From positions 1 to 35,377 of the IMG/VR virus record IMGVR_UViG_3300006079_000002: a stretch of DNA of 35,377 nt. One strand, written 5' to 3'. Of the stretch, positions 10,492-23,404 are shown one piece after another. Origin of the DNA: a virus. Every line of letters starts with the position of its first letter. Within the stretch, counting starts at the first letter, position 1. Under the pieces are notes generated by a model. That model was given only the letters and a program-made list of their open reading frames with translations. It ran no database searches and had not been told where the DNA came from. The translations under genes and the position numbers were made by a program.

Positions 10492-10760
10492 TGAATCTCC
10501 CACTTATAAACAGAACCATTTACTGTTTCAAATGTTACTTGTCGATGGTGAATTGAAAGACCATCATCATCTTTTAAAATCTTTGTGACTGTCTCAGTCT
10601 TATACCACTGAGAACCACCCTCAACAAGTAATACACTGCCTACAGTTGGTTCGTTGATATTATCATCAGAAGAAAATGACTTAGTAATGATTCCATCCTT
10701 AACCATCACTCCAAATGATTGTTCGTTTCCTATTCCATCAATTTTTGTTAGTCTATACAT
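10488..10760 (-). CDS. Hypothetical beta-rich protein, 90 aa
   Basis: It directly abuts the amidotransferase-QueC gene upstream (1-base overlap, TAATG type) and couples to the next gene by ATGA. The protein is predicted to be mainly beta strands (FGVMVKDGIITKSF, VGSVLLVEGG, SVYKWEI) with an acidic central loop. It has no catalytic motif. Its tight link to the queC fusion makes a role beside deazaguanine synthesis conceivable, but nothing in the sequence proves this. Confidence 0.65.
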   Translation of the reverse strand: MYRLTKIDGIGNEQSFGVMVKDGIITKSFSSDDNINEPTVGSVLLVEGGSQWYKTETVTKILKDDDGLSIHHRQVTFETVNGSVYKWEIQ

Positions 10761-12034
10761 TAAAACACTCCATCAATAGATACTCTATTTCTAAAAACAG
10801 GGTCTTTAACTCCGTTTCTCTCAAATGCAGTTTTCCTCATAAAACAAGGAGCACAATTACCACAATGTAGTTTTTCATCAGAATAACAAGACCACGTCAT
10901 CTCAAACGGAACATCTAGACGTATACCTTCTTTAACAATCTCGTGTTTCATAAATGTTGAGATAGGTTGGAGTAATTCAATTTTAACACCATTCTGTGTA
11001 GCATATGGTAGAATGTTATTAAAGAGTCTACCAAATTCTTGTTCATTATCAGGGTATGCACCACTCTCCTCAAGATTACCACCAAATGCAATATATCCAA
11101 ACTCATTGGATTCTGCCCAAGCAGTTAATATTGACAACATCAGTAAATTTCTACCTGATACCCAATCCTCTGCATATTCAGTTCCTGCAATTTTATCCTT
11201 GTGGTAAGTCCCTTCAGTGATTGTTCCTCTCATCACGTTAGGCATTTTAATAAATTCTAAATCAAATCCACCATCTTTTGCAATCTTTTCGATTCTATCT
11301 ACTTCATTTCCCTCTGCAAGACAATCATATAACATATGAACTAACGTAACATCATATCCCTGTTCTTTTAACATGTATGCTACCACTGTGGAATCTAATC
11401 CAGAAGAGGCGCTGACCACAACCTTATTAGACTGTGTTCTTGGTATCTCAACTGTTCTATTATTTCCTCCTACTAAATCAATTTCCATTATACTATAAGG
11501 TGGTAATGCAACACTTGGTGCAAGAATCATATCTGGTGTGGATGCCCAGATTAAATAGTCATCACACTGATAGTAGTAAATAGGTTTGAAGTTCGCTGCT
11601 AAGATTACACCATTCTTACTATGATATGCAAGAGCAAAACTCCCTTTAATTTTTTGTATTTGTGAAAGTGAATCTTCAAACTCCCTAGACTTTATTATTA
11701 ATGGTAATACCATTGAGTCAATTGGTAGGTCTGCAAAGTCTTTATCATTAGCAATAACACCATTGTGGACAATACCATCATATGGTTGTAATATACCTAC
11801 GGCAGTTTCAGACTCCGTTGTGGGAGTTGCTCTGAAATTTCCTAAGACCCTATTACTATTACATATAACCCGTTTGTCTTCCTCACTCATTACATTAGAG
11901 TCATTCCTAACTTCACCATACGGACTAGTTACTTGAAAACCATATCCATCTCTACCACGCTCATTAGCCTTGGTTAATAAATGGTTTTTTACTTCGTCTG
12001 GTACATCACCATACCATCCTACAATTGAACACAT
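10760..12034 (-). CDS. queC: Class II amidotransferase-QueC fusion for 7-deazaguanine synthesis
   Basis: Residues 1 to about 195 are a class II glutamine amidotransferase: the start MCSIVGWYG leaves Cys2 as N-terminal nucleophile, and RGRDGYGF (26-33) and IVHNGVIAN (88-96) fit the glutamine site. Residues about 204-424 are QueC: PP-loop S210-SGLDS, GRNLLMLS (294-301), GGN-LEESGAYPDN, and a zinc site C383, C391, C394, C397. QueC uses ATP and ammonia to turn 7-carboxy-7-deazaguanine (CDG) into the amide (ADG) and then preQ0. The fused domain would supply ammonia from glutamine. Similar fusions are known in Campylobacter phages with 7-amido-7-deazaguanine in DNA. With FolE, QueD and DpdA here, DNA modification is the likely purpose. 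The gene follows an AGGAG site 6 bases from ATG. Confidence 0.92.
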   Translation of the reverse strand: MCSIVGWYGDVPDEVKNHLLTKANERGRDGYGFQVTSPYGEVRNDSNVMSEEDKRVICNSNRVLGNFRATPTTESETAVGILQPYDGIVHNGVIANDKDFADLPIDSMVLPLIIKSREFEDSLSQIQKIKGSFALAYHSKNGVILAANFKPIYYYQCDDYLIWASTPDMILAPSVALPPYSIMEIDLVGGNNRTVEIPRTQSNKVVVSASSGLDSTVVAYMLKEQGYDVTLVHMLYDCLAEGNEVDRIEKIAKDGGFDLEFIKMPNVMRGTITEGTYHKDKIAGTEYAEDWVSGRNLLMLSILTAWAESNEFGYIAFGGNLEESGAYPDNEQEFGRLFNNILPYATQNGVKIELLQPISTFMKHEIVKEGIRLDVPFEMTWSCYSDEKLHCGNCAPCFMRKTAFERNGVKDPVFRNRVSIDGVF

Positions 12035-12043
12035 AATATACTC

Positions 12044-12130
12044 CTATTTACTATACTTGACGATTAATGTTTGTAAGTACTCTTGTAACTCTTTGATAAG
12101 CCCTAATACTTCTTTATTATCTTTTTGAAT
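12044..12130 (-). CDS. Possible 28-aa peptide with ATT start
   Basis: Between gp41 and queC lies an in-frame stretch preceded by the leader AATAGGAGTATATC. It matches the leaders AATAGGAGTATATT (queC) and AATAGGAGTATAAA (120-aa gene) but reads ATT where those have ATG. The peptide has a Leu-heptad helix (EVLGLIKELQEYLQTLI). No ATG, GTG or TTG precedes it in frame. It may use a rare ATT (or the ATC just upstream) as start, or be a decayed gene. Confidence 0.35.
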   Translation of the reverse strand: MQKDNKEVLGLIKELQEYLQTLIVKYSK

Positions 12131-12142
12131 GATATACTCCTA

Positions 12143-13531
12143 TTAAACTTGAAATTTCTTGAATGTGGCTTTCTTATCCTCATTCTTTGATCTATTGAAT
12201 TGTGAAGTCTCGACAACTTGGTCAGGCATCACTAGTTCACTTTGTGCATCTTCTTCTACATTATACCATCTCATCTTCGGTTTGTCAATACCAATTACAA
12301 ATCTTTTATTCTTATTCATATCACCATAACGATTCTTTAATTGTTTAACCATTATCTGATTTAAATCCTCTAATTCTTCTGTAGATATAAGTGCCAACAT
12401 CATATCAGCTGTTGCAGGAAGTCCAAACGATTCACTCGTATCTTCTAATCCAACATCACTATTTGAGTATCCTGAACGTGTGGTCTGTGTTGCTGAGAAT
12501 AGTGGAACGTTATATTCAACTGCTAATCCACGTAACTCTTCTGCAATTGCTTTAACATAGGTGTAACTATTAATACCAGATAACCCACCAGAATATCTTG
12601 CCGAAGCACAAATGTTAAGATAGTCAATAAAGATTATATCAGGAACAAATGACTTCTTCATTTTTAGTTCCTTTAATAACGCTTTAAAATGTCCAGAGTG
12701 TGCTGTTGCAGTTGGATATTCTTTAACAATCAGTTTCCCTTTAGTAGAATCTTTGACTTTATTAATCTTCTTCTCGTATGCAGTTCTCGATAACTTCTCT
12801 AAGTCATTCAACGTTACGTTCAACAAGTTAGCATCAATACGTTCTGCAATTCTCTCCTCAGCCATCTCCATTGTGATATAGAGTACGTTATTACCTTGAG
12901 TTAAACAGTTTGATGCTATATGAGTCATTGCTAGTGTCTTACCAACACCAGGACCTGCTAAGAAGATATTCAATGTCTTCTTTGGTATACCACCCTTAGT
13001 TATCTCATTTAGATAGTCTATATCAAATGGAATACGTTCTTCTTTCCTATGATAGAAGTCGAAACGTTCATCTGCGTTCTCTAAGAAATCGTGACCAATA
13101 TGAGTGTCAAATGATACTGCCAGAGCATCACTTAATAAATCTGGGATTGCTGACTTATTCTGCTTTCCCGTCTTATCATCGATAATAGTAATAGATTCCA
13201 TTATAGCATTATACACTGCCTTATCCCTACAGAATTTTTCTGTGGTATCCAACAACCATTCCATGTCTGAATTCTCATTTTCAAATGATGATATCTCTTC
13301 TACGGCTTGAGTATATTGTGTAGAAGATATATCTTCACGTGCATCCATAGCAATAATCAATGCCTCTTTAGTAGGCCTGTTATTGTACTTATTAATGAAC
13401 TCTCTAATCTCTTCGAAGATAACCTTATCCACACCATCGTGAAAATATTCTGCTTTTAGGAAGTGGGAGGCTCTTCGGGTGTAATCTTCATTAAATATAA
13501 GATTTTGAATTATTGTACTTTCAAGCGTCAA
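12143..13531 (-). CDS. 41: gp41-like replicative DNA helicase
   Basis: A hexameric DnaB-family (SF4) helicase that unwinds the lagging-strand template in the T4-type replisome. Walker A lies at G193-PGVGKT199, and Walker B is the strand DIIFIDYLN with an Asp after the hydrophobic run. The TQTTRSGYS segment corresponds to helicase motif H3, and residues 1 to about 140 form the helical N-terminal domain. The length (462 aa) is close to T4 gp41 (475 aa). Its start overlaps the 83-aa gene by 11 bases, and it lies after uvsX as in T4. gp61 primase is not in the window. Confidence 0.95.
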   Translation of the reverse strand: MTLESTIIQNLIFNEDYTRRASHFLKAEYFHDGVDKVIFEEIREFINKYNNRPTKEALIIAMDAREDISSTQYTQAVEEISSFENENSDMEWLLDTTEKFCRDKAVYNAIMESITIIDDKTGKQNKSAIPDLLSDALAVSFDTHIGHDFLENADERFDFYHRKEERIPFDIDYLNEITKGGIPKKTLNIFLAGPGVGKTLAMTHIASNCLTQGNNVLYITMEMAEERIAERIDANLLNVTLNDLEKLSRTAYEKKINKVKDSTKGKLIVKEYPTATAHSGHFKALLKELKMKKSFVPDIIFIDYLNICASARYSGGLSGINSYTYVKAIAEELRGLAVEYNVPLFSATQTTRSGYSNSDVGLEDTSESFGLPATADMMLALISTEELEDLNQIMVKQLKNRYGDMNKNKRFVIGIDKPKMRWYNVEEDAQSELVMPDQVVETSQFNRSKNEDKKATFKKFQV

Positions 13532-13772
13532 TTATGTCTTCCTCATCAAATAGTTTCAATGTCTCTTTAAATAGTTTCATTATAGTATCATTAACTTCAT
13601 CAGCTACTTCATCTAATGAGACATTATTAGGATTCTCAGTCAATACCATTTCATAAGATAATGCAAGGTTACCAGCACTATCGATATTGTTTTCGTCAAT
13701 ACCTATGTTAGTAACCTCAACTACAGCACCATCAGTTAATCTAACATAAAATTTCTCATCAAATTTATTCAT
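13521..13772 (-). CDS. Hypothetical acidic protein between UvsX and gp41, 83 aa
   Basis: It occupies the position of T4 gene 40, between uvsX and 41, and overlaps both neighbours (8 and 11 bases). Residues 1-35 are beta-rich (KFYVRLTDGAVVEVTNIGI), and the rest is an acidic helical tail (DEVADEVNDTIMKLF, EEDIIDA). It lacks the hydrophobic character of T4 gp40, so identity with that head-initiation protein is not supported. It probably contributes to the recombination/replication unit, with no defined role. Confidence 0.7.
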   Translation of the reverse strand: MNKFDEKFYVRLTDGAVVEVTNIGIDENNIDSAGNLALSYEMVLTENPNNVSLDEVADEVNDTIMKLFKETLKLFDEEDIIDA

Positions 13773-14790
13773 CTTCTTCTTGTACCATTTCAGTCATACC
13801 TAGTGTATATCTTTCTTGAACCCATTTAGGGAAATCAGTTTCTTCGAGGATAGGCAACCAGAACTCTTTCCTATTTGTTTCTGCTGCTCTCCAATTTTTA
13901 TCACCATCTACAGACGGTCTAGTGTACCATCCAACTTTTGGTTTAATCACGTGTCCTGATATCACTGCTACGTCTAACAAACCAGACCACTTATTTATAC
14001 CACCTTCGAAGGTTACTACAATAGGAATCTTACTTTTTTCTCTAACAAATCTTGACTTCTCAATGTTGATATTAAATGAATATCCATTTAACTCTTTGCC
14101 AGTCTTCTCTTGAGAACGTCCAATGATCCAAACGTTATCCGCTGAATACATTACACCAGTACCGCCGGAAACTACTGGTCTAGAGAACATTTCTTGTGTT
14201 TGGTATGTATGATTGACTGCTACTAATGGAATATCCTTAGTGGTCAAATACGGTGTCACCATACGGAATAGACTCTTAATCTGTTTAGCACGAGTCATGT
14301 CTGCAACAGACTTTTCATTCAATGCATCATCAACTTCTTTCTTTGAAGCAAGATTACCAATAGAATCAATAAAGATGAATACCTTATCTTTCTTTCCAAT
14401 CTCCTTCATTTTCTTCATTATATCGAATTTCAATTCTTCGATATCCATTACTGGAGTATGTAATACTCTTTCAGTATTAACACCAAACGCATCGAAATAT
14501 TTCTCTGGGGTGCCGAACTCACTATCATAGAATAAGCAGATAGAGTCTTTATGCCTCTTTAAGAACGCACCCATTAAAAGAATACCAAAGGCAGTCTTAA
14601 AATGTTTCGAAGGACCTGCCAATATCGTCAATCCTGATGTTAATCCACCATCGAGTCTTCCACTCAATGCAACATTGATCATTGGTACTCCTGTAGGAAT
14701 AACGTCCTTATCTTTATATAAAGTTGACTCTGATAGTACTGTACTCTTGATTGCAGCAGCCGCTTGCAATCGTTCAATTAATAAACTCAT
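13765..14790 (-). CDS. uvsX: UvsX recombinase (RecA-like)
   Basis: A strand-exchange protein that coats single-stranded DNA for recombination-dependent replication, with UvsY as loader. The P-loop G59-PSKHFKT66 is the characteristic UvsX form of Walker A, and FIFIDSIGN is the Walker B strand. VNHTYQTQEM, and the SGGTGVMYSADNVWI segment after it, match DNA-binding loops of the family. Length (341 aa) is slightly under T4 UvsX (about 390). An AAGGAGG ribosome site lies just upstream. It is co-transcribed with gp43. Confidence 0.95.
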   Translation of the reverse strand: MSLLIERLQAAAAIKSTVLSESTLYKDKDVIPTGVPMINVALSGRLDGGLTSGLTILAGPSKHFKTAFGILLMGAFLKRHKDSICLFYDSEFGTPEKYFDAFGVNTERVLHTPVMDIEELKFDIMKKMKEIGKKDKVFIFIDSIGNLASKKEVDDALNEKSVADMTRAKQIKSLFRMVTPYLTTKDIPLVAVNHTYQTQEMFSRPVVSGGTGVMYSADNVWIIGRSQEKTGKELNGYSFNINIEKSRFVREKSKIPIVVTFEGGINKWSGLLDVAVISGHVIKPKVGWYTRPSVDGDKNWRAAETNRKEFWLPILEETDFPKWVQERYTLGMTEMVQEEDE

Positions 14791-14799
14791 ATTTCCTCC

Positions 14800-17295
14800 T
14801 TAATTAAAAAAATCTTCTAATGTAGCTGTTACTTCATGTTTCCAATTGATAGCATCTAGAATCGTTTTTAAGGGTTCTAGAAATGTCTTTGAGAACATTA
14901 TATCATAATCCACGTACTTTGTCAAGTCAAATTCGATAGGAATTCCACCTTGAAATGCAATAACATTTTCTTGTATTGTATTTGGTTCTTTTAGATAGAT
15001 AAACTTAATCTTATCACCTTCTTGGATTTGTGATACTGTCTTAAGCAATTTATGTTTTCTAATCAGATTGTTATATAGTAGTGACCCTCTTACGTGAATC
15101 GGAGTTCCTTTAGTATACCCATCACCATTCCTATATTTCTCAAGTCCATTGACTCCTCTAGGGAAGGCAATGTCTTGTGGTTTCTGTTTATTAAATTGCT
15201 CTCTGAAATCTTCAATGTACTCGATAACTGTATCATTGTCCGTATTTAGAATTAACTCAACTACCTTTCTCAACTTGTTACGAACCACTTCAGGAGTACT
15301 AGATTTAACAATCTCAAGACCCATTACTTTCATCTTAGGTTCTGCATATCGTACACCTTCATTGTCATATACATTGAGAGCATAACGTTTCTTTGCTGTC
15401 CAAATTGCTTTATCAGCAATCACTTCACGTTCCATGTACATCTTCTGTTCATATGCATTCATATACTCTGCTAACTCTTCGTAACACTCAGTAATGAATG
15501 GTTCGATTTTCTCTTTAGAAATAGTATCCAAGAAGTTTACAATCTTTGTCTTCTCTTCAGGAGTATTCACTTTATCACCAAATATTCTATTAACAAGATT
15601 ACCTAAACGGAGATAGTTTGAGTCAGTATCGATTGCCACAACATAGTCATAGTTGTCAGTCTTTAACAAGTCATTGAAATAATCATTTAGTTTATTAGCA
15701 ATCCACTTAATAGATAATTGACCAGAAAGGGTGATTGCTTCTGCATTCGCTAAACTGTAATATCTAAAGTATTGATTACCAATTGCACCATATGCTGAGT
15801 TCAATTGAATCTTACGTGCCATCTGAAAGTTGTTATACTTTGCAATATCGTTTCCAACATCTTCACCATCTTCTTTTCTTTGTTGAGCTTCCAACATCTG
15901 TTTCTTGAATACTTTACGTTCCAAGTATAACTTATTCATTAACTCTGGTAAGAATCCACGTTTATTCTTTCTGAACATGTGACCATTGGCTGCTAGAGAA
16001 TACTCACTCTCGTGTGCTGAACTAGTGTCAACTTCTTTATTAACCAAATCATCTACATTGACTTCTAGATAATCATCTACAATAGTCTCAGGTGAAATGT
16101 TATACTGCATTATTAGATGAGGATATAGTGATGCTAAGTCAAACGATACAACCCAATCGTGGAATCCACAGATAGGGTCTTTAACATATGCACCTGCGTA
16201 CTTATCACCACTAGTATGATTTTGTGGTGGGATTACGATATTATCTTTTCTTAGATAATTATAGATGATGGCATCCCAAGTTTTCACTGGAGAGAATACA
16301 TCTTGGAATGTGATGTGAGCATCATATGCCATTGTGAATACTAATTCCATTAGTTTCATCTTATCGTCCAAACGCTGTACAATCTCTACGTCTTTGATAT
16401 TGTATTCAATAAACTTCTGGTAGTTAACTCTAGAAAGATTATGTAGTGAACCCTCTTCCTCATACGACAACTTATGGTCATTTAGTTCCACATATGCAAT
16501 GTGGTCTAGTTTGTAATTCTCTTGTGTTGTGTATGTAAACTTCCTATATAGAGCAAGATAGTCAACTACTGAAACACCAGCGATATCATATTTAATCTGT
16601 TCCTTTCCAAACATCGCCCTGACTTTACGTTCATTAATTCTTTTCCAAGGAGATAGTTCCTTAGCCGTTTTAGGTGAGAATACACGTGCGAATCTATTAA
16701 CGATATATGGAATATCAAATCCTTCTACGTTCCACCCAGTGATAACATTTGGTGTTGTCAGTCTCCATTTGGCTAAGAAGTCTTTGAGTAGTTCAGTCTC
16801 TTTACTGAACTGTCTGTATTCTACATCTTTTCTGTCAGTAGTGAAATCATCTAGACCCCATACAGTATACTTCTTAGTGATACTATCTCTTACTGTGATA
16901 GCATTAATGATTGCTTTAGCCACTTCGGGTTTAGGGAATCCATCTATTGAATCAACTTCGATATCGATATTCCATATACGAATAGAGTCTATATCGAATT
17001 CTACATCACCACTATATCCTTTTGAGATATACTGAAGTTTATAATCGTTCATACCATAGACCTTAAAATTCTCTACAGATTCATATCGCTTCATGAAGTC
17101 TCTAGTCTCATTTATTGATCCAGGTTTTATTGGTTCTACATCATCACCCTCTAAAGTTTTAAATTTACTTTCACTTAAAGATGGGATAAACATCGTTGGA
17201 GAAAAATCAACTTTCTCCTCAAATGGTACTCCATCCTCAACACCCCGTACTGCTACATTATTGCCCAGTACATCTACATTTGTATAAAATTTCAT
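14800..17295 (-). CDS. 43: gp43 family B replicative DNA polymerase
   Basis: A single uninterrupted 831-aa family B polymerase (T4 gp43, 898 aa). The exonuclease domain shows D111-I-E113 (Exo I), GWNVEGFD194 (Exo II) and YNIKD302 (Exo III). The polymerase domain has D386-LASLYP392 (motif A), K495-IQLNSAYG (motif B) and AID556-TD558 (motif C), where Ile replaces the usual Gly before DTD. The C-terminus carries the helical tail that would bind the gp45 clamp. It replicates the genome with gp44/62 and gp45. A -35/-10 pair lies so close to the ATG (6 bases) that its transcript would be leaderless; no ribosome site is seen. Confidence 0.97.
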   Translation of the reverse strand: MKFYTNVDVLGNNVAVRGVEDGVPFEEKVDFSPTMFIPSLSESKFKTLEGDDVEPIKPGSINETRDFMKRYESVENFKVYGMNDYKLQYISKGYSGDVEFDIDSIRIWNIDIEVDSIDGFPKPEVAKAIINAITVRDSITKKYTVWGLDDFTTDRKDVEYRQFSKETELLKDFLAKWRLTTPNVITGWNVEGFDIPYIVNRFARVFSPKTAKELSPWKRINERKVRAMFGKEQIKYDIAGVSVVDYLALYRKFTYTTQENYKLDHIAYVELNDHKLSYEEEGSLHNLSRVNYQKFIEYNIKDVEIVQRLDDKMKLMELVFTMAYDAHITFQDVFSPVKTWDAIIYNYLRKDNIVIPPQNHTSGDKYAGAYVKDPICGFHDWVVSFDLASLYPHLIMQYNISPETIVDDYLEVNVDDLVNKEVDTSSAHESEYSLAANGHMFRKNKRGFLPELMNKLYLERKVFKKQMLEAQQRKEDGEDVGNDIAKYNNFQMARKIQLNSAYGAIGNQYFRYYSLANAEAITLSGQLSIKWIANKLNDYFNDLLKTDNYDYVVAIDTDSNYLRLGNLVNRIFGDKVNTPEEKTKIVNFLDTISKEKIEPFITECYEELAEYMNAYEQKMYMEREVIADKAIWTAKKRYALNVYDNEGVRYAEPKMKVMGLEIVKSSTPEVVRNKLRKVVELILNTDNDTVIEYIEDFREQFNKQKPQDIAFPRGVNGLEKYRNGDGYTKGTPIHVRGSLLYNNLIRKHKLLKTVSQIQEGDKIKFIYLKEPNTIQENVIAFQGGIPIEFDLTKYVDYDIMFSKTFLEPLKTILDAINWKHEVTATLEDFFN

Positions 17296-17301
17296 AGTTA
17301 T

Positions 17302-17330
17302 ATTTTACCACAATTAGAAGAAAGAGTCAA
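17302..17330 (-). promoter_or_regulatory. Putative sigma70-type promoter for gp43
   Basis: TTGACT (17325-17330), a 17-base spacer ending TGG, and TAAAAT (17302-17307). It lies in the 3' end of dpdA; the -10 ends 6 bases before the gp43 ATG. Confidence 0.55.
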
Positions 17331-18567
17331 GTGATTGTGCAGTATTATTTACTTTAGATTTCTGCTCTTGTTTCCATCGTCTAGCCACCTTTGGATTATC
17401 CCAACCACGATTGATAATATTGATACCATCTATAGGGTTATTGAATGCCTCTTTAATCACCATTACGTTATTCCAAATTGGAGTTGGTATTGCTGATTCA
17501 ATAGCAGCATCAATTCCCATATATAACATATCCTCTACCACATCCTTATAGCGTAACATCTGGTATAGATTATGTGATGCTCCTAAAGTATAGAATGGAA
17601 CTGAGTTGGTTAAGAATTCTTTGATGTCTACAATATCTCTACAGATAGGACAAATACAAGGAAGTTTAGCATCATCAGGTACATTACTATAATCAAATCT
17701 ATTAGATAGAGTCAATGAAGTGAATCCAGCAGACTTCTGATATAGAGGTCCTGACTCTTCACTCATAAAGTAGTCACCAAATGCAAACGTTCTAGTAAAA
17801 TAAGAACTGTCATAAGTAATCTGAATATCAACACCGTGTTTGTTTAATTCGTCTTGAACGACTGCAAGATACAACATTACCACTGCTCTACTAATACCAA
17901 ATACGTGATGTACTTTAATTGTATCTTTGTCGTATTCACCATCATTCCACAAGTGGATGATTGTACTTAGAATAGTTTTCATGTTGGCAAGATGACCACC
18001 GTGAGCCCATCCATCTAATGGATATTGCTTCATTGCATTATACCAAGGGATTACACTATTCATGTTACTGCCTTGTACAACATTCATCACAGTAGTGTTA
18101 TCACGTGTTCTATTATCAAGATAGTACTGTGCTGATACTTTCGTTAAATCTAATCTATCATTAAATGTTAATACAGGAGAATTCTTATCTTTTATTTTTC
18201 TCTCAGCACCTGGTCTATCTAGAATTGGGAAGATGTCACCATTGGCTTCAGAGAATTTAAGTGCAACTTCATTGCCATAATTCTTTTCACTGATTACACC
18301 TGTAGCCAATTGATAACCACCTGAGTCAATAAACACTTGGGTATCAGGACTACATCCCATCTTCTCTCTGAAGTTATCTAATTTATAGTGATGTGCTGCT
18401 GATAGTAATACGTATGGATGTTTGAAATAACCCTCTGTAGTACTATCGAAGAATCTTGCAGACTTAGTGAATGCTGGTGATTTTGCTTTTAATTCTTCAT
18501 CTGTATTTCCGTACAAGTACGAAGAAAATGTTCCTGCTAACGCAGGGTAGTATATCGCTCTTTTCAT
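17314..18567 (-). CDS. dpdA: DpdA-type DNA guanine transglycosylase
   Basis: A TIM-barrel enzyme of the tRNA-guanine transglycosylase (TGT) superfamily. The motif D81-SGGYQ86 corresponds to the catalytic D-S-G-G-F-Q of TGT. D253 in TYDSSYFTRTF corresponds to the nucleophile region, and the zinc site is C304-x-C306-x2-C309 with H332. Divergent members called DpdA exchange guanine for 7-deazaguanine bases in DNA. Linkage with folE, queD and a queC fusion, inside a phage replication operon, favours this over tRNA queuosine. At 417 aa it is longer than bacterial TGT (about 375). The incoming base (preQ0, amide or other) cannot be read from sequence. It starts after folE with an 18-base gap. Confidence 0.88.
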   Translation of the reverse strand: MKRAIYYPALAGTFSSYLYGNTDEELKAKSPAFTKSARFFDSTTEGYFKHPYVLLSAAHHYKLDNFREKMGCSPDTQVFIDSGGYQLATGVISEKNYGNEVALKFSEANGDIFPILDRPGAERKIKDKNSPVLTFNDRLDLTKVSAQYYLDNRTRDNTTVMNVVQGSNMNSVIPWYNAMKQYPLDGWAHGGHLANMKTILSTIIHLWNDGEYDKDTIKVHHVFGISRAVVMLYLAVVQDELNKHGVDIQITYDSSYFTRTFAFGDYFMSEESGPLYQKSAGFTSLTLSNRFDYSNVPDDAKLPCICPICRDIVDIKEFLTNSVPFYTLGASHNLYQMLRYKDVVEDMLYMGIDAAIESAIPTPIWNNVMVIKEAFNNPIDGINIINRGWDNPKVARRWKQEQKSKVNNTAQSLDSFF

Positions 18568-18585
18568 TATATAATTTTTCCTATA

Positions 18586-19260
18586 TTAACATTTGTTTGC
18601 AATGGCCATGAATTCTGCACGAACTTCTGGAACCTCAATAAATAATCCACCTAATTTACTTGTAATAGTACTTGAATTTATATCTTCTACTCCACGAGTC
18701 TTAACGCAGAAGTGTTCAGCATCAATCATTACTGCAACATTAGGTGTTCCAAGAATGTATGCTAATGCGTGATAGATTTGTTCAGTCAATCTCTCTTGAA
18801 TCTGTGGTCTTCTACTGAAGTATTCGACTATACGATTCATCTTAGATAAACCAAGTACTTTATCATCAGGGATGTATGCTACTGTAGCATTCCCTGTAAT
18901 GGTTACAATATGATGTTCACAGTTGCTCATTACGGTAATGTTTCTCTCAACAACCATTGTATCATATTTCATTTTGTTTTGAACTGTTGTACACTTAGGA
19001 AAGTGGTCTGGATTGAGTCCCCAAAAGAACTCTTTAACAAACATCTTTGCTACTCTCTTTGGTGTATCTTCTAATGAGTCATCGCTCATATCTAATCCCA
19101 ATGTACTCAATATGTCAAACATGTTTTCTTCTATTAAGGCAATCTTAACTTCATCTGACGTATCATCTTTAATCATTGGTGTTTCTAAACCAATATCTAA
19201 TAGATGTTGGTGTACTTGTTGACCCAGAACAGGGTCAGTTTTATGTGGACTAAAAGCCAT
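18586..19260 (-). CDS. folE: GTP cyclohydrolase I
   Basis: It converts GTP to 7,8-dihydroneopterin triphosphate, the entry step of 7-deazaguanine (and folate) synthesis. The zinc ligands C114, H117 and C185 are present in SNCEHHIVTI and EHFCVKTRG; the GLSKMNRIV and RRPQIQERLTEQI motifs are close to the E. coli enzyme. At 224 aa it matches the E. coli FolE length (222). The start follows AAGGAG, and a strong promoter lies 57 bases upstream. The likely chain is FolE, then QueD, (QueE, not seen here), QueC, and DpdA. Confidence 0.96.
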   Translation of the reverse strand: MAFSPHKTDPVLGQQVHQHLLDIGLETPMIKDDTSDEVKIALIEENMFDILSTLGLDMSDDSLEDTPKRVAKMFVKEFFWGLNPDHFPKCTTVQNKMKYDTMVVERNITVMSNCEHHIVTITGNATVAYIPDDKVLGLSKMNRIVEYFSRRPQIQERLTEQIYHALAYILGTPNVAVMIDAEHFCVKTRGVEDINSSTITSKLGGLFIEVPEVRAEFMAIANKC

Positions 19261-19317
19261 TATATATTCTCCTTTTATACCTAATATATTTATTTAGGTT
19301 TTTTACACTGTTGCTTA

Positions 19318-19346
19318 ATTATACCACAAACGCTGTAGTTTGTCAA
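19318..19346 (-). promoter_or_regulatory. Consensus sigma70 promoter for folE
   Basis: Perfect TTGACA (19341-19346), 17-base spacer, TGG-TATAAT (19318-19323). The -35 contains the TGA stop of the upstream 58-aa gene. Likely an early promoter for folE, dpdA and gp43. Confidence 0.85.
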
Positions 19347-19519
19347 GAACTATTTTTTAAAATTCTCTGTTCCTTGATTCTGTTTTTGATATCGTCTTTA
19401 GAGGAATATCGTTCAGTCTTAGGTTTAGGTTTTGTTGATTTTATTCTTTCGAATATAGGGTAATTATCATCTTCATAATCATCAATATTAATATTGGTAA
19501 AATTCATCTTTCTATTCAT
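19343..19519 (-). CDS. 58-aa charged hypothetical protein
   Basis: The ORF starts at ATG 19519, 3 bases after the queD stop, with a second in-frame ATG at residue 5. It ends in a TGA embedded in the -35 box of the folE promoter. The first part is acidic (NINIDDYEDDNYPIF), the second strongly basic (KSTKPKPKTERYSSKDDIKNRIKEQR), so it may be an intrinsically disordered binding protein. No family is recognised. Support comes from tight placement after queD and from filling the gap. Confidence 0.6.
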   Translation of the reverse strand: MNRKMNFTNINIDDYEDDNYPIFERIKSTKPKPKTERYSSKDDIKNRIKEQRILKNSS

Positions 19520-19522
19520 ATA

Positions 19523-20119
19523 CTATACTTGTTGTTCGGGTTCCTTATATACAATACTATCGCCATTGAGAAGATTTTTCATCATATCTCTATCTGACCA
19601 TTCGTCTCTAATAGCATCACTAAAGACTATATCAGAAATTTTGATAGCTCCGTTGTCAAAATCATTATATGCATCGTCTTTAAAACACTCGGCATATCCG
19701 GTACGTGTTTCGTGGACTACAACACTATGCAGTATTATATTTTCATCTTCACCATTATGAAACTCAGACTTAGATAAAAACTCATCTACTAGAACAAAGA
19801 ATACTCTGCTCATTTGTTCTGCCGATGGAGACACTGGAAGTGATATCCATCTTGCTGAAAACTTTTTGATTGCTGCTATGTATTCTGGATCGTCTTTATC
19901 CCAAAACTGTGTGGAATGATCCCAAGAATCTATTACATCTTTAATGCCCTGCTTCATTATTCCAAAGTCTAGTACCATACCAGCTTTATCTAATTTGCGG
20001 GATTTGAAGAGTACTTCAATCTCATATGAGTGTCCGTGAATTGAATATTTACATCTTTCTGAATAACAATTTCTAACAACGTGTGCATTTTCGAACTTAA
20101 ACATTTTACGAATTATCAT
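19523..20119 (-). CDS. queD: QueD-like 6-carboxytetrahydropterin synthase
   Basis: It belongs to the 6-pyruvoyl-tetrahydropterin synthase/QueD family, which makes 6-carboxy-5,6,7,8-tetrahydropterin from dihydroneopterin triphosphate. The zinc histidines are H13 (FENAHVV), H28 and H30 (IHGHSY), and the catalytic cysteine would be C23. The usual QueD spacing is C-x3-H-G-H; here it is C-x4-H-G-H. MVLDFG and VVHETRTGYAE fit the substrate and catalytic Asp/Glu/His segments. At 198 aa it is longer than bacterial QueD (about 120), with an insert at residues about 75-115. It sits behind its own promoter, 34 bases upstream. Confidence 0.9.
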   Translation of the reverse strand: MIIRKMFKFENAHVVRNCYSERCKYSIHGHSYEIEVLFKSRKLDKAGMVLDFGIMKQGIKDVIDSWDHSTQFWDKDDPEYIAAIKKFSARWISLPVSPSAEQMSRVFFVLVDEFLSKSEFHNGEDENIILHSVVVHETRTGYAECFKDDAYNDFDNGAIKISDIVFSDAIRDEWSDRDMMKNLLNGDSIVYKEPEQQV

Positions 20120-20153: not shown

Positions 20154-20182
20154 ATTATAACACATTTCCAATTAAAAGTCAA
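20154..20182 (-). promoter_or_regulatory. Sigma70-type promoter for queD
   Basis: TTGACT (20177-20182), 17-base spacer ending TGT, TATAAT (20154-20159). It sits right after the stop of the coiled-coil gene upstream. Confidence 0.8.
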
Positions 20183-22723: not shown

Positions 22724-23404
22724 CTATTGCTCGAATGTTGAATCTGGCTCTAGAGCAATCCAATATTCCAACGCTTCAGTCTTATGTGTAAAGTGACTAA
22801 TAAATTTAGACGAAATCTCTAAGTCGTAATCACCCTTAAGGATTTTCATGTTCTCAACCTTAAAGAAGAATTTGAACGTAGCACCATTAGAACCATCAAC
22901 AGACAATTCACGCGAGTACGTATTACTTGTTGGTGAGTTCTTATCAAGTACTTCTGCTACCACTGATTCACCATCAGAACGGATACAGAAATCAGGCAAC
23001 ATATAAACTGCTGCTGCTCTCAATAACTTATCATAGTTTGCGGCAGACAAAGTCACTGACACTTCTGCTGGTGGCATAGTAATATCCTTCTCAGGTTTGA
23101 CGATGATTGACTCATCAGCATAGTAATAAAGAGTTTTACCACCACCAACCGAAGAATCTGTAATAGTCATGTACTGTGTATCAAAATCAATATCGGGATT
23201 TTGAAACAGTGATATACCACTTAAGAATTCTTTTAAATCATAAACACAAAAGTCTTGAGGGAATGAATCCCCTACAGTTGCTTTTGCTAAAATATTTTTC
23301 TGTACTGAAATAGTTTTAATTACGTCTCCACTATACTGGGCAATCGATTGATTGATTCCAGAAAAGTTTTCTAATATTCCAATAGTCTTTTTATCAAGTT
23401 TCAT
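22724..23404 (-). CDS. 45: gp45 sliding clamp
   Basis: A trimeric sliding clamp that holds gp43 on DNA and activates late transcription through gp55/gp33. At 226 aa it equals the T4 size (228). The sequence shows the duplicated clamp fold (KATVGDSFPQDFCVYDLKEFLS, then LSAANYDKLLRAAAVYM) and a C-terminal LEYWIALEPD. A strong GGAGG site precedes the ATG. The gene has its own leader of about 130 bases after a terminator. Confidence 0.92.
   Translation of the reverse strand: MKLDKKTIGILENFSGINQSIAQYSGDVIKTISVQKNILAKATVGDSFPQDFCVYDLKEFLSGISLFQNPDIDFDTQYMTITDSSVGGGKTLYYYADESIIVKPEKDITMPPAEVSVTLSAANYDKLLRAAAVYMLPDFCIRSDGESVVAEVLDKNSPTSNTYSRELSVDGSNGATFKFFFKVENMKILKGDYDLEISSKFISHFTHKTEALEYWIALEPDSTFEQ

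Follow-up and report, generated by a model that had tools for sequence, protein, structure and literature searches.

A probable 7-deazaguanine DNA modification pathway in the replication block of a T4-like phage, with a transglycosylase probably tethered to the sliding clamp

The 35,377 bases analysed here (the window) are the whole of the IMG/VR record IMGVR_UViG_3300006079_000002, a fragment of a T4-like phage that carries a set of genes for 7-deazaguanine modification of DNA. The genes for the gp23 major capsid protein and a tail tube protein lie at one end, and further T4-type genes are those for UvsW, a gp55-type late sigma factor, gp46/gp47, gp45, gp44, gp62, RegA, gp43, UvsX, and gp41. 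The modification set comprises QueD, FolE, and a DpdA-type guanine transglycosylase, in that order directly before gp43, and a fusion of a glutamine amidotransferase to QueC (Gat-QueC) directly after gp41 (Table 1). A first-pass annotation had placed these four genes among gp43, uvsX, and gp41, and all four are there, on the minus strand. QueD has the CxxxxHGH motif and finds its nearest solved structure in 7v0f (E 2e-68), while phrog_10428, the family matched by Gat-QueC, is an amidotransferase-QueC family.

Table 1. Genes and sites of the modification set and its surroundings in the window.
Feature	Position	Strand	Basis
QueD (6-carboxytetrahydropterin synthase, 198 aa, long form)	19523..20119	-	PF01242 1e-24; TIGR03367 6e-20, under its cut-off
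FolE (GTP cyclohydrolase I, 224 aa)	18586..19260	-	NF006824 305 bits vs cut-off 202; PF01227 8e-60
DpdA-type guanine transglycosylase, 417 aa	17314..18567	-	motifs, profiles, structure model; TIGR00432 5e-4
DpdA C-terminal SLDSFF, clamp-binding-like motif	17317..17334	-	same type as gp43 C-terminus in window and relatives
gp43 DNA polymerase, C-terminus TLEDFFN	14800..17295	-	phrog_262 E 0
UvsX recombinase	13765..14790	-	phrog_97 6e-91
gp41-type replicative helicase, called with TTG start	12143..13531	-	phrog_19 1e-130
Gat-QueC fusion, 424 aa	10760..12034	-	PF06508 7e-44; phrog_10428 1e-88 over residues 16-411
gp45 sliding clamp, presumed docking partner of DpdA	22724..23404	-	PF09116 2e-12
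Promoter-like site, 11/12, 35 nt upstream of QueD	20154..20182	-	sigma-70 consensus match
Promoter-like site, 12/12, 58 nt upstream of FolE, leads FolE-DpdA-gp43	19318..19346	-	sigma-70 consensus match
Promoter-like site, 12/12, within gp41, 226 nt upstream of Gat-QueC	12260..12288	-	sigma-70 consensus match

The transglycosylase is the only member of the set that family libraries (Pfam, PHROGs, and NCBIfam) leave unnamed. It matches no Pfam or PHROGs family, and its best NCBIfam match, the archaeal tRNA-guanine transglycosylase (TGT) TgtA, falls under the cut-off. We identify it as a DpdA by its motifs, by comparison with DpdA2 and DpdA1 profiles, and by structure. The predicted catalytic aspartates are D81 (in DSGGYQ) and D253 (in YDSS), and the predicted zinc site consists of C304, C306, and C309 (CxCxxC) with H332. 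These residues are kept in all or nearly all of 15 relatives, and both aspartate motifs and the CxCxxC are in register with E. coli Tgt in an alignment reaching up to the CxCxxC. An AlphaFold model based on 15 aligned sequences (the window DpdA and relatives from viral contigs) has a predicted local distance difference test score (pLDDT) of 79 and a predicted TM-score (pTM) of 0.83 and presents a TGT fold. Its top two Foldseek matches in the PDB are TGTs (1e-7), and VIA-align superposes it on human TGT with Z 23.8 over 311 residues (root-mean-square deviation 4.0). The first-pass reading of the locus as a DNA modification set with DpdA-type exchange is retained here.

Within the DpdA proteins, the enzyme appears to form a new and distant branch that is best treated as separate from both DpdA1 and DpdA2. 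Profile comparison gave E 8e-6 (probability 84%) with DpdA2 and E 2.7e-5 (probability 74%) with the DpdA1 of phage 9g type, and an nt-1 DpdA2 model was retrieved by fold (E 6e-8). Searches by tblastn with the window DpdA returned no 9g-type phage at E 1e-5 and no match in nt-1 or KVP40; the only named phages matched were Pseudomonas phages of the PA5oct and Peetri types, where the proteins are unannotated. The genome collection search yielded no bacterial or archaeal contig carrying this DpdA. The enzyme and that of a relative numbered L046 (45% identity) form a well-supported pair, next to which stands another clade of T4-like phages (the L004 type). Two other members of the wider group were noted in passing. 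A DpdA relative in PA5oct (EST35_0316, annotated hypothetical; L024:9968-11590) has the DSGG motif and lacks the CxCxxC zinc site, and the DpdA2 of BUCT-ZZ01 (L023:19114-20364) belongs to phrog_10773, a family listed as of unknown function that could now be named DpdA2-like. Further subfamilies, DpdA3 and DpdA4, are reportedly described in a 2023 Nucleic Acids Research paper.

Since the enzyme shares its fold and active site with tRNA TGTs, it might instead raise queuosine or archaeosine in tRNA during infection. We regard this as very improbable: its sequence groups with the phage DpdA2 and DpdA1 profiles rather than with E. coli Tgt (E 0.02, a value obtained with a single sequence where the other two come from profiles), it lies in the gp43 operon and bears a polymerase-type clamp tail, and 9g DpdA failed to complement delta-tgt (PMC6884629). 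Genomic context and kinship point to DNA as the likely substrate.

The most distinctive feature of this DpdA is its C-terminus. It ends in AQSLDSFF and the gp43 of the same phage in ATLEDFFN, both of one hydrophobic-acidic type, and in L046 the corresponding ends are SLEGFF and TLEGFF. Termini of this type close T4 gp43 (ASLDFLFG) and gp55 (SLDFLYEAND), and those of T4 gp43, gp55, and gp33 bind the sliding clamp gp45 and are interchangeable (PMC2988020). The window DpdA tail therefore fits, as a sequence, the pattern of a T4-type clamp-binding C-terminus, and because this is the peptide by which a T4-type polymerase holds its clamp, we infer that DpdA probably binds gp45 through it. In the AlphaFold model the tail is a low-confidence extension (residues 409-417). 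A strict form of the pattern matched about 30 of 2,009 distinct genes, namely gp43s, DpdAs, one glycosyltransferase beside DpdA (BUCT-ZZ01), one ArcS-like DUF5591 protein (nt-1), and one 79-aa open reading frame. The end of Gat-QueC, SIDGVF, was considered as a further clamp motif and set aside; it fits only a looser pattern, and among nearly 2,000 genes about a dozen unrelated ones fit that pattern too.

The pattern was first chosen after viewing the window and a few relatives, and a scan of viral contigs for DpdA2 provided a separate test, in which proteins were found by their core motifs and not by the tail (seven named DpdA2s served as its seeds, and these were already familiar). Of the 79 DpdA2s, 60 had the tail and most others a near-variant (INLEELF, SLEEMF, DTLELF), whereas all 255 base-synthesis enzymes (74 FolE, 63 QueD, 63 QueE, and 55 phosphoribosyltransferases) lacked it. 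Other genes of the DpdA2 loci rarely carried it (3/74 glycosyltransferases, 6/1,139 unassigned). After clustering at 80% identity, the comparison stood at 15 of 22 DpdA2 clusters against 0 of 72 for base synthesis. The fifth residue of the tail, scored as F or L/M, moreover agreed between DpdA and its own gp43 in all 15 pairs read with the motif at both ends (Fisher p 3e-4, a nominal value because the paired phages are related).

Several points weigh against a clamp-tethered DpdA. Besides the relatedness just mentioned, the pair test left out pairs with a deviating end (L180, L137, pf16, nt-1, KVP40). Most DpdAs of the L004-type sister clade either lack the tail or have a degenerate form (SAASLF in L004, AELSFK in L031, GLGI in L034, and also L037-L044), and the DpdA2s of KVP40, nt-1, and pf16 are without it; the family can therefore do without this peptide. 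The precedent of T4 alpha-glucosyltransferase also cuts both ways. It is a DNA-modifying enzyme that binds gp45 (PMC13216743), the type of clamp on which we predict the window DpdA to dock; yet its chemistry is that of glucosylated hydroxymethylcytosine, it has no SLxxFF-type C-terminal motif although it is bound to gp45, and clamp binding is reportedly not the main determinant of its modification share (PMC13216743). An ordinary soluble DpdA would modify phage DNA anywhere and at any time, its place among replication genes would reflect early expression only, and its C-terminal peptide would go unused. Many relatives without the tail do retain the gene set, and in E. coli the 9g pair of DpdA and Gat-QueC needs no phage clamp to modify plasmid DNA (PMC6884629). 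The strong and family-specific recurrence of the tail in DpdA2, matching the phage's own gp43, nevertheless makes a purely soluble enzyme unlikely. The search of a literature library found no paper linking DpdA to a sliding clamp, and the word "clamp" is absent from the main DpdA paper; we regard the link as provisionally new.

Clamp-type tails were also seen on a few other proteins. Glycosyltransferases of the BUCT-ZZ01 type (also in L173, L202, and L215) bear one, and the nt-1 ArcS-like protein (VPFG_00169; L127:2504-3184) ends in NSLANFF while the DpdA2 of the same phage has no tail. Two tailed proteins of 340 and 298 aa near DpdA2 (L142:6782-7804 and L204:4089-4985), which match no Pfam or PHROGs family, are candidates for further DNA-acting enzymes. 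The 9g-type DpdA1 genes (L073-L117) adjoin a beta-type clamp gene, and their products end in a conserved QELF/QDLF-type tail, present at all 18 loci examined, confined to DpdA1 there, and unlike the end of their polymerase. This tail loosely resembles bacterial beta-clamp peptides and is kept as a lead only.

What base the pathway would deliver depends on Gat-QueC. The protein has a class-II glutaminase domain with Cys2, a PP-loop SxGLDS motif, and a four-cysteine zinc site, consistent with the earlier proposal that the fusion would make its own ammonia from glutamine. It is collinear with 9g Gat-QueC, Cys2 and the zinc cysteines being invariant in the alignment, and the closest named proteins (36-39% identity) come largely from 9g-like phages, whose "archaeosine synthase" proteins match it at 37-39%. 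When expressed alone in E. coli, 9g DpdA put 7-cyano-7-deazaguanine (preQ0) into DNA; together with Gat-QueC it gave deoxyarchaeosine (dG+) at about 9-18% of G in plasmid DNA, with little or no dPreQ0 and with partial EcoRI resistance (PMC6884629). Because the window Gat-QueC is nearest to these 9g-like proteins, whose pairing with DpdA gives dG+, we predict that dG+ is a more likely end product than preQ0 or the amide, 7-amido-7-deazaguanine (ADG). The first-pass annotation had favored preQ0 or the amide as the incoming base; preQ0 could indeed still be what comes in, and it is as the final product that homology to 9g disfavors it. Against our prediction, archaeosine (G+) formation by the window Gat-QueC rests on about 38% identity.

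A pathway stopping at preQ0 or ADG, in which Gat-QueC is a synthase with its own ammonia supply and DpdA inserts that base, is possible but less probable. The activity of 9g DpdA alone fits it, and so do L034, L035, L037, L038, and L040, relatives that have an unfused QueC at this locus and should make preQ0; Gat fusions, by contrast, are the archaeosine-forming type in archaea and in 9g, where the product contained little or no dPreQ0. At this locus L004, L005, and L008 have Gat-QueC, and since either form occupies the same position, the last pathway step appears to have been swapped between close phages. In L010:10001-11761 about 480 in-frame bases interrupt Gat-QueC within an open frame of 616 aa; they may be an intein or some other insert.

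Additional chemistry may follow in some relatives. Downstream of FolE-DpdA, L046 (11168-13564) encodes a short PTPS-like protein, a glycosyltransferase-like protein related to that of PA5oct, and a radical-SAM/SPASM protein, possibly for further base decoration. A glycosyltransferase-like gene adjoins DpdA in most DpdA2 loci (L137-L215, e.g., L156 and L173) and also in ACP17, X1, BUCT-ZZ01, L046, and PA5oct (genes at L125:5272-6300, L128:2812-3972, L023:17778-19121, L046:11518-12594, and L024:11590-12651), with Pfam support weak in several. This arrangement suggests glycosylated 7-deazaguanine in DNA.

Neither QueE nor QueF is recognizable in the 35,377-base window, as the first-pass annotation had also reported. 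A Pfam Radical_SAM search for QueE came back empty there and missed the true QueE of L004 as well, phage QueEs of that kind having an insert between the cysteines; it was therefore replaced by a tblastn search with three QueE queries, two from phages and one from E. coli, which likewise gave no match in the window. A scan for a QueE from the same sampling series (33000486xx) gave none among the best 80 matches listed. The gene heads the cluster in L004, L031, L032, L041, and L044. The closest relative known from a long contig (64 kb) encodes it in the vicinity of RegA and a primase-like protein, some 27 kb from FolE-DpdA; in KVP40 it is likewise far from the other pathway genes (PMC8056088). 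Because QueE in relatives is either next to the set or some 27 kb distant from it, its absence from a 35-kb fragment is uninformative and does not point to a missing step, though it does weigh on the pathway proposed here. The suggestion that 7-carboxy-7-deazaguanine (CDG) is made elsewhere holds in the sense of outside the window. That the set is a non-functional remnant for want of QueE is the least credible of the alternatives; the window is a fragment, and key catalytic or metal-binding motifs of all four enzymes are present.

The placement of the set in the replication block is real and recurrent in relatives and named phages, and not unique to this one. T4-like relatives share a set of QueE, phosphoribosyltransferase, QueD, FolE, DpdA, and (Gat-)QueC beside gp44/gp45/gp62, lying between gp44 and gp62 in L031, L032, L041, and L044 and before gp45 in L004. 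In the window, FolE, DpdA, gp43, and uvsX are separated by 9-18 bases. Five sigma-70 sites with 12/12 matches and a spacing of 17 were found, all on the minus strand, against 0.05 expected in the whole window; two stand upstream of FolE and Gat-QueC, QueD has an 11/12 site ahead of it, and all are consensus matches and not proof of promoters. The T4 late-promoter TATAAATA also occurs five times, which is the chance expectation. The first-pass annotation had taken the dispersal of the genes to suggest co-regulation with DNA synthesis, which these near-consensus promoters and the tight FolE-DpdA-gp43 run favor; what it missed is the likely physical link in the clamp-type C-terminus of DpdA. Overall, its observation is confirmed and its interpretation partly supported.

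Among known systems, the dG+ pathway of Enterobacteria phage 9g (FolE, QueD, QueE, Gat-QueC, DpdA1) has the same enzymes and the same fusion (38% identity), and likewise adjoins sliding clamp and polymerase genes. However, 9g, a siphovirus, has a beta-type clamp, its set includes QueE, and its DpdA1, with a QELF-type tail, is only a distant profile match to the window enzyme. The T4-like DpdA2 phages (KVP40, nt-1, Acidovorax phage ACP17, Stenotrophomonas phage Marzo, Xanthomonas phage X1, and Synechococcus phage BUCT-ZZ01) share phage type and pathway genes. Their sets lie between a recombination protein and a primase-helicase in ACP17, beside a primase-helicase in X1, and between a recombinase and a helicase in Marzo, and most DpdA2s have the clamp-type tail. 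DpdA2 is nonetheless a remote relative of the window DpdA, and in those phages that were read the place of Gat-QueC is taken by plain QueC, QueF, or ArcS-like proteins, frequently next to a glycosyltransferase. In the Campylobacter phage CP220, deoxy-ADG (dADG) replaces G (as cited in PMC8306585), and pathway genes are scattered among T4-like replication genes, with QueC adjoining the DNA polymerase and FolE between the clamp and gp41. Its QueC is not a Gat fusion, and a search of CP220 with the window DpdA, run without a positive control, gave no match.

We propose, with a probability of roughly 0.7, that the window encodes a phage DNA 7-deazaguanine modification pathway set in a T4-type replication block, with DpdA probably tethered to gp45. 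FolE and QueD would supply the pterin precursor, and QueE, encoded elsewhere in the phage or by the host, would convert it to CDG. Gat-QueC would turn CDG into preQ0 and then, with ammonia from glutamine, carry it towards the formamidine of G+. DpdA would replace guanines of the phage DNA by the 7-deazaguanine. The final base is most likely dG+, and its presence would protect the DNA from host restriction enzymes. Held on gp45 at new DNA by a polymerase-type peptide, DpdA would probably carry out the modification close behind the fork, the simplest reading and one already put forward for gp45-bound T4 alpha-glucosyltransferase (PMC13216743).

On a broader scale, we consider it likely that DNA transglycosylases of T4-type phages are sliding-clamp clients, tying guanine-to-7-deazaguanine exchange to the replisome, with the peptide carried by DNA-acting enzymes (DpdA, some glycosyltransferases, and the nt-1 ArcS-like protein) and not by the makers of the free base. 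This bears on how 7-deazaguanine phages modify their DNA before restriction enzymes cut it, and on whether the exchange is coupled to replication. The comparison also names as likely DpdAs proteins left unassigned by Pfam and PHROGs, and the clamp-type tail may help to tell enzymes acting on DNA from those acting on the base in modification clusters of unknown function.

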